Assembly (NCBI RefSeq): GCF_964355755.1
Contig: NC_092670.1
Coordinates: forward strand, 22,381,201 to 22,445,200
Source: Antedon mediterranea
Taxonomy: Eukaryota > Echinodermata > Crinoidea > Comatulida > Antedonidae
DNA: 64,000 bases
Direction: 5' to 3'
Below are positions 24,601 to 30,600 of the stretch, in pieces (positions within the stretch are counted from its first letter, which is position 1; each line of letters begins with the position of its first letter). The position numbers and the translations under genes are program-made. The notes beneath the pieces were generated by a model. That model was not told the DNA's origin and made no database searches. It was given only the letters and a program-made list of their open reading frames with translations.

Positions 24601-27600
24601 ACCTGTTGTCAAATGCTGCCTCTATTGGCTCTAACCTTTGGTTGAGTCATTGGAGTAACCAACCCATTGTTGATGGAGTGAACGATGCAAGCAAGCGTGA
24701 CATGTACCTTGGTGTTTATGCTGCCCTCGGGCTTACTCAAGGTAAGATTAAACTAAAAACATAGAACTATTGAAAATGGCAAAGTAGTAGCAATAGCCAT
24801 AATATTGTTGTATTATAAACGATGTAATGTTGCACCAATGTTGCATAATTGTATATACTTTTTTCATATGATAGATATTTTGTATGATTTTTATACAATT
24901 TACTGTTTTAACATAACTTGTTATAGAAATTATGTTTTTAATCTTATTTTAACAATTTGCACAGAAATACAAATGTGTTTTTGTTGTATTATATTTTAGA
25001 AATTTATACCACTTCATATATTGTCATTATATTAGGCCTAAAAGGAATGTTATGTTGGCTAAGCAAAATAGACCCAATTCAATAACATTTTTTTCAACAC
25101 CCTCTAATTATTAATTTTAGCCCAGTAGTTTTTTTTTAAAACAAAATCAGTTTAAAATAGATAAATCCCAGACCGTAATTTATCTGACGAACCGACTTTG
25201 TTTTTCAGTATGCCGCACTTGGCCAACATAACCATTTTTTTAGACCTTATATGTACATTTATGACTTGCAAATTACAATGATACATTTTCTCCAGGGTTG
25301 CTGACCCTAGGATCATCAATAGCAGTAGCACTAGCAGCTATTGGGGCCTCCCAACAAGCTCACAACAGCCTACTCGTCAAAATTCTATATGCTCCAATGA
25401 ATTTCTTCGATACCACGCCATTGGGTCGTATTCTGAATCGCTTCAGTCGAGACATATATGTGGTTGATGAGTTGGTTCCTCGAAATTTATCTATCCTCTG
25501 TCGAACATTAATCTCAACTCTGGCTATTGTGACCATCATCAGCTACTCAACCCCACTTTTTATGACGATCATCTTACCCCTATCTGCCTTATATGTGTTC
25601 ATGCAGGTATAAAAAGAATTGTATTATGGGGCATCTTATTGTATATCAGCTTAATATGTTAGATTTGTATTAGTTTAGAATGTGGTTCTTAGATCTTATA
25701 ATCTTCTCTATCATTATTTATCTAAACCATCCTCATATTTGGCTCAGTATAGATCTGATGTACTCAATATGCATTTGTGTATGTTATATTTCATTACATT
25801 TCTTTAATTCGTAATGCATGCAAGACTTTTTCTCAAAGTACTATATTCTGTGATGTATTGTATTCAATCAAACACTCTTGGTTTTATGATCCATCATCAA
25901 TCAACGATTTCTCTCAACCCTAACAAGCCTAGATACGCAAGGAATATTTAATCATGTTTCTCTTGCATCTTCAGATTGTGCAGTGGCTTCTCTTAAGCTC
26001 TGTCTACACTATCAAACATTATGTGACAAAAAAATGTGATGTGCCCATAATATATGGACATGATGATGTCATATCACTACCATATTTAAGCATATCACTA
26101 CCATATTTAAGCATATCGCTACCCTATTTAGGAGCATCACACTTTTTTTGTCAAACTAGTTATAGTGTAGATAGAGCTTTACATAGCAGCAACAATTATA
26201 TATCAACAATTTGATCATTAACATTTCTAACCCTAAACAACCTAATTCTTGTTTTTCTTACCATTCTGACACATTTATAAATCCAATATTAAGATAATTT
26301 TGCTAATATAGGACAAACCACTAGTACTGTACCTTTCAAACCCAATTATGGGGATTTTGTTTGTATTACAATATTTAATTTTCTTGTATATAAAGTTCTA
26401 ATTTAACTGTTTGTTTTGTATGGAGTGAGTGCAAAATCTATTTGGGCATTAGCCATTCTCACTCCTGGCTATTTTCTATTGGTTACCGAATATCAAAGAG
26501 TTTATATCAAAGTCACTAAAATAAAATTGATCCTTCTTTATTCTAGCACTGTTCGTGATTGGCCGTGCATTAGGCATTGCCATTGGTTCGCTACAAGCCT
26601 CCTGTGTGCTCCACAATTTCCTTCTGAAACATATCTTTCTTTGGCCAATGACAATATTCGATTCAACGCCACAAGGTCGTGTTTTGAATCGATTCGGTAA
26701 AGATATATTTGTGATTGATGAGAAGCTACAAGATATCATCTCTGAAATGGTTGCTTCTGCTTTTGAAATTGTGGAGATTATCTTAGCCATTAGTTTAACT
26801 ACACCAATATTTGATATTTCGCTACTACCCTGTGGCGTTGTCTATTTCTTTATTCAGGTTTGTGGTTGTTTTAGTTTTCAATACTTTATTTTATATTCCA
26901 TATTAGTTTTACTTTGTCTGCTTATTTTTTACAATGTACTGTTGTATTTTGTTTTACTGTTCTTTTTTTAATTTATAACCAAATTTAGCTGATCCAATTT
27001 CAATTTGTATTCCTCATTATTCTGCCAATATTGCTTTGGTGCAGTATTGAATGTTTTTACTGAAGTATGACCATCAATAAAAATATTACACATGCGCTGT
27101 AATTCAATCGCTTTGATCATTTTCAAGATACATCAAATTTAGTAGGCCTACTATTTTCCTTAACCAAAATGTAAAGTGGGAAGGTCTTCCTGGGTTCTCA
27201 GAACTTTCTCTTGTGGACAGGGAACAAGCTCTGAGTAAGAAGCCTATTGATCTAGGAGCACTTTGTTACTAATACTAATCTAATCAATTCACATTATCAC
27301 CTATATTTTTATTTCAGCATCATCGTTGGCCTGCTTAGAGTTATTTCTTTTCCTCAATACTGGCTATCTTTTGTTTTCACAAAACGCTGCCAGATTTACA
27401 CAGCTTGCATGCTCAGAGGCATATGAATATGCACAGAATGACTTTCTAACTCAATAGTTACATAGTCGTGTAGCACATCATGAAAACAATAGGTTGCTGT
27501 TTAATTATACTCTACTGTTGTATGTGTCATCATGAAATACTGTTTAATAATTGTTACCATTGATTTATTAATTATTATTATTATTTGTCACTATATTCAT

Positions 27601-30600
27601 TACAGTTATCATAATCATCATTATTATCTAAACAACTTGTTATAGGAGCTGTGATTTCTAGATTGACAGGGAAACTACTAGAGTAGAACCCCTCATTAGA
27701 GGCGTCCCTATTAACTCAGGAGACCCCCCTTTTTAGAGTGGCAATTTCCTTTGATATGAACAAGAGGCAATATATGTTTTAACGTTATGCTCAACCTCTA
27801 TTCAGAGGATACACCTATTAAGGGGACTCTTTGCTGGGTCCCAAAGTTAATAAAGGTTCTACTGTATTAGCCTAACAGTCTAATGTTATTTATTTCAAAT
27901 AAGTATATCTGTACTCATCATCTTTTAACCATTCATTTCAACTAATATGTTTCCACAAACACTATGTAATCTTTATCTTGCTTCTAGGTATAAGCATCCT
28001 CTTCGGTGCTATCATCGTGTTTGCCATCGGTGCTGTCCTGGCCTCCAGAAAACTTCATAATGCCATGGTTCACAACATACTACTAGCACCAATGTCATTC
28101 TTTGACATGAACCCAAAGGGTCGACTTCTAAATCGGTTCTCTAAAGACATTGACATCACCGATTTAAAACTACCGGAAACTATCCAACCTTGGTTGGATT
28201 GTTTCTTCAAAGTGGCAGGGGCCATGTTTGTAATCAGCTTGTCTTCGCCATATTTTTTGACGGTTTTTCCTGCATTAGCATTATTCTATTACATAGTTCA
28301 GGTACTATCATCTTTACTTTGTTTTCATTTTTGTATTGATTCAATATCAATACATTTATTTAACAGTTTTCAATTTAAAAGTATGTTTGAGTTTTATTCA
28401 GTTATTATTTTGAGCTCTTTACTTGACCCATTTGTTCAATGTTCAATCAATCAATGATATGTGTAAAAATACCTCCATGATATATTAAGGATTGATAGAT
28501 ACTTTTTGTTGGGATGTTCCATTTACCTATTAATATAATGTATTCAATGAATTTCTGGCTGTAATATACAGTTAAATGTAATGATAAACAGACAATCGTG
28601 TAGATTGTTTGTTAATGCTTTAATTATGGAATTTATTCTTGAAAATGATCAAACAGATTGAAATGTTGAATTCTCACCCATGACTTTACTCACCATAACT
28701 TCACACATTTTATTATTATTTATTCTATCAACACTTACTGTGTACTAACCAGTCTCATACCTACTTGTAGCCCACATTTTGAATGTCAAACATCCTGTAG
28801 AAAAAGCCATACTTTATAAATCAGTCAAATCTGTATACTGGTTTCTCACTTTCCTACTAATCTTTGATTTTAGATTCATTGTTTTTATTATTCTTCCATT
28901 AACAAAAAATAACTACTCTACTACCCGTTGTGTGTTAATAGATATTTATTTAGCATGTTGATAGTAATAATGTTTTTTGCATGGGCTATTTATTTGCTTG
29001 TTGTGGTTTTAGTGGATTTATTGTTGTTTATAATGATTTATTAAGTTAAATTTATATTTGCTTAATTTGATTAATTATTCAATTAAGGAGTTCCTCTAAT
29101 AAAAGACCGTTTTGATAGTTTTGAGGCTAAATTACCATAGCAATTTGTTCCTGAATAATGATGTGATTCTAATTGGAGACCAAAATAACTTAAAAAATCA
29201 TGGTTAACTGTATATTAGAAATTGTTAATCCCACCCAAGAATTTTCCAACTTACTAAGACTTCAGAACTTGACTCCCTGACACAAAGCTAATTTGTAGTA
29301 GTTAAAATTATCATTTTCTTTTATCCTTAAACAGCGATTTTATGTGAGTACATCCCGACAATTGAAACGTTTGGAGTCTGTATCACGGTCACCCATCTAT
29401 TCGCACTTCTCCGAGACTATCACAGGAACAAGTACAATAAGAGCATATAAGCGTCAGTCAGAATTTATCAAACAAAATGAATTGTTGATTGATGAAAATC
29501 AAGTCACTTATTACCCAAATATCTGCTCAAACAGGTAAATTCAATGTGTTTGTATTGTCAGAGGCGTAACAGCTATGACCGCTTACTGGCTAAACCTAGG
29601 GGCCCCGAAGCTTATGGAACCTCTGAGCAGTGCCCAGAGGAAAAAAAACAGGCATTAAAATATGTCTAAAAACGCACAAGGCCTCCAGCATTGGAGGGCC
29701 ACTTAGAGTTCCTAAACCAGGGGCCTCAGGTCTCTATGTTACGTCACTGTGTATTGTATTATATTCTAGATAACGTTTTAAGGTGTATAATAACAATATT
29801 TTTCTTTCCGTTTCTTCTAGATGGTTAGCTCTGCGTCTTGAGTTTGTTGGAAACTGTATAGTCTTCTTTGCATCTCTGTTTGCTGTGATTGGTCGTGATA
29901 GGCTTAGCCCCGGCCTTGTTGGGTTGTCTGTCTCCTATGCAATGCAGGTAACGATTTCTCAACTGTCTTCTTACAAATTTGAATTGTGTTTGCTGTGATT
30001 GGTCGTGATAGGCTTAGCCCCGGCCTTGTTGGGTTGTCTGTCTCCTATGCAATGCAGGTAACGATTTCTCAACTGCCTTCTTACAAATTTGAATTGCAAT
30101 TGTAAAAATAAAATACAGATTGAAGTTGACCAAAGGTTAGCATTACAATTGTTAAATATTAAGCTCTGTCCACACTATCAAACTAGTTTGACAAAAATGT
30201 CTGATGTTTCTAATATGGTAGTGATATGACATCATCGTGTCCATATATGGGCACATCATATTTGTTTGTCATTCAAAGTTTGATAGTGTAAAAGGGCTTT
30301 ACTACAGTGGTTACTATTGTTTACAGTTTACTAGTCAATTTATTTTTATAGTGTAATATCTTTTGTTTTATAGATTACACAAACCTTGAATTGGTTGGTG
30401 CGAATGACAAGCGAACTAGAGACAAACATAGTTGCAGTGGAAAGAATTAAGGAATATTCTGAGACAAAGACAGAGGTAATGCTACTTTAATACTGTAATT
30501 ATGGGTGGCACCAGCTTGGCCTTGCCATTGCGGAAGATTTGTGAAATATTTCTACACCTTTTGTTGGCTTTTCTCGCACACATGTGATCCGCCATTGACT

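Follow-up and report, generated by a model that had tools for sequence, protein, structure and literature searches.

Three tandem, predicted mutually exclusive exons in an MRP1-type transporter gene of the crinoid Antedon mediterranea

Tandem arrays of mutually exclusive exons in genes of the multidrug resistance-associated protein (MRP) family are, in the outline that published accounts give, found in the fly and in the worm, and they have independent origins in several lineages. In the part of one such account that deals with metazoan MRP genes, multiple independent exon duplications are described and control by RNA structure is cited (PMC6071210). Drosophila MRP (CG6214, dMRP), an MRP1-type gene, is described in summary as having tandem homologous exons (Grailles et al. 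2003), with eight copies in D. melanogaster, and C. elegans mrp-1, an orthologous gene, is likewise summarized as having mutually exclusive exons of equal length, from a duplication that is said to have no relation to that of the fly. Here we analyse a similar cluster, with three copies instead of the eight of the fly and likened to that of C. elegans by description only, in an MRP1-type (ABCC1) gene of the crinoid Antedon mediterranea. The gene lies in a stretch of 64,000 nucleotides (contig NC_092670.1 of assembly GCF_964355755.1, positions 22,381,201 to 22,445,200 of the forward strand), which is called the window below and whose own positions are used throughout. The original prediction for this DNA implied that the arrangement was new, which is not supported because such arrays have been published for the MRP genes of several animals. 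As to what the arrangement is, we consider it highly probable from the gene's sequence that it is a mutually exclusive exon cluster that arose by an old tandem duplication, and we predict three isoforms from it.

The three-exon cluster and its gene

The three variable exons, 21A (positions 25296 to 25606; 311 nucleotides), 21B (26547 to 26857; 311 nucleotides) and 21C (27988 to 28301; 314 nucleotides), all on the forward strand, were placed by a spliced model and by homology. They sit between constant exon 20 (24528 to 24741, forward strand), which leaves in phase 1, and constant exon 22 (29335 to 29534, forward strand), which accepts phase 0, both placed by the spliced model. All three copies have AG/GT borders, enter in phase 1 and leave in phase 0, and carry the motif FD..P.GR.LNRF..D, and these properties, like the coordinates and lengths, are exactly those that had been predicted. 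By tblastn, 21A matched residues 1025-1130 of human MRP1, 21B residues 1030-1130 and 21C residues 1022-1130; we take the helix borders within residues ~1025-1130 to be such that each copy codes for transmembrane helix 13 (TM13), a cytosolic coupling segment and TM14-15. In solved MRP structures, too, all three copies align to one and the same part. Their likeness exceeds what chance would give: each variable exon retrieved the other two within the window at E values of 4.6e-22 to 4.5e-19 and, when set between its neighbours, matched PF00664 (2.6e-42 for A, 1.2e-33 for B and 6.9e-39 for C). The introns between the copies are 940 and 1130 nucleotides long with GT-AG sites, and the GC content of the window is 34%. 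No fourth or broken copy was found by tblastn over 13-33.5 kb or with a profile of A, B and C over the whole window; in the six-frame scan with this profile only the chunks with the three exons matched, the next E value among the best 20 matches being 0.24. An exon-like stretch after position 27318, noticed by eye, was rejected as it had no score in the copy search.

The reading frame is kept in three of the eight possible combinations of these exons, namely, those with A, B or C singly (1550, 1550 and 1551 codons including the stop). The other five have a premature stop, at residue 1083 when all copies are skipped, at 1150 with AC or BC, and at 1152 with AB or ABC, which bears out the rule in the original prediction that exactly one copy has to be included. 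From this frame logic we infer that each mRNA would take one copy of 21A, 21B or 21C and that an mRNA with no copy or with more than one would, through the frameshift and early stop, be removed by nonsense-mediated decay. The three resulting transporters would share TMD0, TMD1, the two nucleotide-binding domains (NBDs) and the larger part of the substrate pocket, and would have different TM13-TM15 in the second membrane domain. Several traits by which a mutually exclusive cluster is recognized are found here, namely, tandem homologous exons, equal phases, similar lengths, conserved splice borders and a frame that is kept by single inclusion only.

The gene around the cluster is nearly complete and occupies positions 13713 to 32978 of the forward strand. 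Its exons follow human MRP1 over residues 23-1531 (tblastn) in the order TMD0, two membrane domains and two NBDs. Constant exons 2-19 (13713 to 24260, forward strand; TMD0, TMD1, NBD1 and linker) are 18 exons, all AG/GT, that give an in-frame, stop-free spliced model and were matched by tblastn with human MRP1; exon 20 covers what we take to be the TM12 region; and constant exons 23-29 (29821 to 32978, forward strand; TM16-17 and NBD2) end, in the spliced model, with a stop at 32976-32978. AG and GT were found at every internal border of the model of exons 2-29, which codes for 1549 residues with A or B and 1550 with C up to the stop. The first coding exon was not found, and since the model begins at exon 2 the exon numbers 20 and 22 are relative. 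Isoform A, taken as a full splice, scored 2069.9 bits against TIGR00957, an equivalog model of NCBI for the multidrug resistance-associated protein (cut-off 1470; profile positions 17-1522 of 1522); the scoring covered this one isoform. On this match, which is above the curated cut-off, the gene product is an MRP equivalog. The spliced isoforms are 53.3-53.9% identical to human MRP1 over ~1555 columns. Gene anatomy and the TIGR00957 match thus agree with the predicted MRP1-type gene with three tandem versions of one exon.

Tandem arrays can be misassembled, and one may ask if the copies belong to separate transporter genes or are an assembly error. A, B and C are, however, just ~50% identical in DNA, and exons 2-20 and 22-29 are each present once around them, except for a partial repeat of exon 23, in a window that sits within a contig of 41.4 Mb. 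We consider this explanation extremely improbable. The exon 23 repeat is a nearly perfect tandem duplication of 110 bases (29877-29986 and 29987-30096) made up of the 3' half of the exon, its donor and some intron. It creates a second donor at 30058, the use of which would add 110 nucleotides and reach a stop.

Divergence of the copies and the substrate pocket

Among A, B and C the protein identity is 35.6-37.5%, and 48.7-51.6% of the coding bases are identical. Synonymous divergence (dS) by the NG86 method is 1.73 for A-B, 1.70 for A-C and 3.48 for B-C, and nonsynonymous divergence (dN) is 0.58-0.71. With dS near saturation, these values show only that the copies are old. The proportion of nonsynonymous differences (pN, 0.40-0.46) is below that of synonymous ones (pS, 0.67-0.74), all frames are open, and the fact that open frames, phases and motif have been kept at such a distance points to selection. 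The same fact bears on the alternative that only one copy, probably C, is in practical use and that A and B are old and silent or nearly so. C is indeed the most like human MRP1 (45.2% identity; A has 36.5% and B has 35.6%), with scores of about 83 bits against MRP1 chains, where A and B have 59-65. Silent exons would be expected to decay, yet at near-saturated synonymous divergence neither A nor B has lost its open frame, its exact phases, its splice sites or the coupling motif, and by base shuffling an open frame was obtained in only 99 (A) and 43 (B) of 20000 trials each (68 for C). Thus, it is very unlikely that a single copy does all the work.

Among solved structures the best match of C was MRP1 (83 bits), that of B was ABCC3 (69 bits), and A matched SUR1 (76 bits) and ABCC3 (74 bits); over ~104 residues these differing matches are suggestive only. 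Two paralogue regions of 10 kb each (L021 on contig C10 and L022 on contig C5) gave one match each for the variable-exon stretch, with 29.5% and 36.9% identity to MRP1, respectively. A second, equally close gene was not seen among 29 genome matches from one search with a first-look filter, which is not proof.

The three copies differ unevenly along their length. In TM13, 4 of 20 positions are invariant; the figures are 17 of 42 for the coupling segment and 6 of 42 for TM14-15. By this alignment the coupling segment has changed least and TM14-15 most, with differences in charge. The surroundings of leukotriene C4 (LTC4) in MRP1 are given as 14 residues in the pocket list of PMC8267652. Thirteen of the 14 contact positions lie in constant exons of the Antedon gene and only one, that of M1093, lies in the variable exon, where the alignment puts Ile in A (codon at 25493 to 25495), Glu in B (26744 to 26746) and Pro in C (28188 to 28190), all on the forward strand. 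The LTC4 pocket is largely conserved, 11 of the 14 residues being the same as in human MRP1 in every isoform; H335 is replaced by Tyr and Y1243 by Thr in every isoform. Because the variation falls in TM14-15 and at the M1093 equivalent, with the coupling segment conserved, the substrate path is more likely to be altered than the ATP coupling, and the change would be confined to one side of the pocket. The swap would then tune the substrate path rather than the coupling. The original prediction had proposed different substrate or coupling profiles for the three forms. Their membrane parts do differ strongly. The substrate half is plausible, but limited by there being one pocket position in the exon, and the coupling half is the weaker one, with 17 of 42 positions invariant.

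The stretch aligned to residues 1089-1130 has two basic and no acidic residues in A, five acidic and no basic residues in B, and two acidic and one basic residue in C, human MRP1 having one of each. A further proposal would be that the exons sort substrates by charge, B being acidic with a Glu in the pocket, A having two basic and no acidic residues and C being MRP1-like, such that splicing would move an organic-anion exporter towards cationic or neutral cargo. We regard this as a long shot. If it were true, a single MRP gene would cover the work of several vertebrate ABCC genes.

How exclusivity might be enforced

Several known ways of making exons mutually exclusive were considered. Steric exclusion, which acts when splice sites are within some tens of bases of each other, was rejected because the introns between the copies are 940 and 1130 nucleotides long. 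Incompatibility of U2 and U12 splice sites was rejected because exons 20, A, B and C all have GT donors that, compared by eye with the U12 consensus, are not U12-like. A stretch ahead of exon 22, TCCTTAAAC, is like a U12 branch site but does not have a matching donor. Weak donors as a sign of regulation were rejected as well because the donors of A, B and C outscore 11, 11 and 10, respectively, of 26 constant donors.

For arthropod MRP, competing pairings of intronic RNA between a docker and selectors are cited, and such pairings would be compatible with a mutually exclusive cluster. We compared six intron pairs with shuffled sequence for their duplex energy and also looked for the longest exact complement in each. 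A candidate was found around exon C, where a 26-base inverted repeat flanks the exon on both sides, with one arm at 27103 to 27128 in the B-C intron and its partner at 28637 to 28662 in the intron between C and exon 22 (both given on the forward strand). Of the 26 bases, 24 are complementary, 17 of them consecutively, and the arms are a weak candidate for a long-range RNA pairing that would loop out exon C. In 1500 shuffles, a run of at least 17 arose once for that intron pair and six times when any of the six pairs was counted, and 24 matches of 26 were reached in one of 1500 rounds. Against this, when the same geometry was tried at 28 background placements in the window one gave a longer run (19 bases; the next was 14), and the genome contains the 17-mer 14 times and a reversed control 0 times. 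The 28637 arm looks repeat-derived because 6 of 12 other copies match its upstream flank, as well as or better than all but at most 4 of 300 shuffles; its downstream flank matches none, and for the 27103 arm no match of the upstream flank was found among the other copies. The inverted repeat at exon C may have come about by chance, one partner being a repeat. Nor did the duplex energies give a clear common docker for A, B and C, since the best energy of each intron pair was equalled by some shuffles, with the sole exception of I1-I2, which was not equalled in 16 shuffles, by a difference of 0.2 kcal and with six pairs tested. A docker and selectors controlling this cluster are therefore, in our judgement, doubtful.

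Some of these results weigh against the exons being a regulated cluster with distinct products. That 11 of the 14 pocket residues are those of human MRP1 whichever exon is used speaks for modest differences in substrates, and the donors of A, B and C, being of ordinary strength, do not point to regulation. The sole notable intron pairing has an arm near a repeat and is surpassed in length at one of the 28 background placements, and an RNA mechanism for exclusivity is not established. We still hold a mutually exclusive cluster to be highly probable.

Neighbouring sequences and known systems

Other repeats were seen by eye in and around the introns of the MRP1-type gene. A tandem repeat with units of ~120-145 bases that contain GCCTGGTAAGAACCAGTTTAACTGG fills 20530-21040; it begins directly at the exon 12 donor and thus holds donor-like copies. 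Two similar copies of a dispersed repeat lie in introns at 21212-21520 and 22563-22870, and sequences like miniature inverted-repeat transposable elements, with inverted ends and a common stretch like CTCTGTCTACACTATCAAAC, lie at 25985-26190, between A and B, and at 30160-30300. Downstream of the gene, a long interspersed nuclear element on the reverse strand (34025-37026) contains frames for a reverse transcriptase (PF00078) and for an endonuclease (PF14529, PF03372). It is followed by an apyrase-family gene (PF06079; 48633-52831, forward strand) of at least two exons, presumably CANT1-like. Two tRNA-Asp-like matches with the anticodon ATC (61142-61213 and 61408-61479), 266 bases apart, are possibly a tRNA-derived repeat. 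Eleven large contigs (22-41 Mb) and seven small ones make up the 354 Mb of the assembly; one of the small contigs, C17 (20.6 kb), was tested as a candidate mitochondrion and rejected.

If spliced as predicted, one exporter gene could yield several pumps that differ by a swapped membrane segment and are constant in their ATP machinery and in most of the pocket. A natural and old swap that is limited to TM13-TM15 would also be a clean experiment on the part that these helices play in the choice of substrates by MRP. Human ABCC1 and bovine MRP1 are of the same family and have the same protein stretch, ~1025-1130, but in a single version, for which human ABCC1 has what we take to be one exon. The fly cluster reportedly lies at the same TM13-15 stretch. 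In the sea urchin gene exon 22 is said to be variable, with efflux assays that differ between the forms, and tandem exon arrays of MRP are reported across many phyla, echinoderms and early chordates included. Echinoderms may already be covered by the published MRP exon arrays, and splicing variants of sea urchin ABCC1 are named in the title of one report (Gokirmak et al. 2016). The Antedon gene adds one more case to the reported pattern in which MRP genes of separate lineages of animals have repeatedly had exons duplicated, and its cluster is a real, well-built case of a gene layout that has already been described for the MRP family in other invertebrates.

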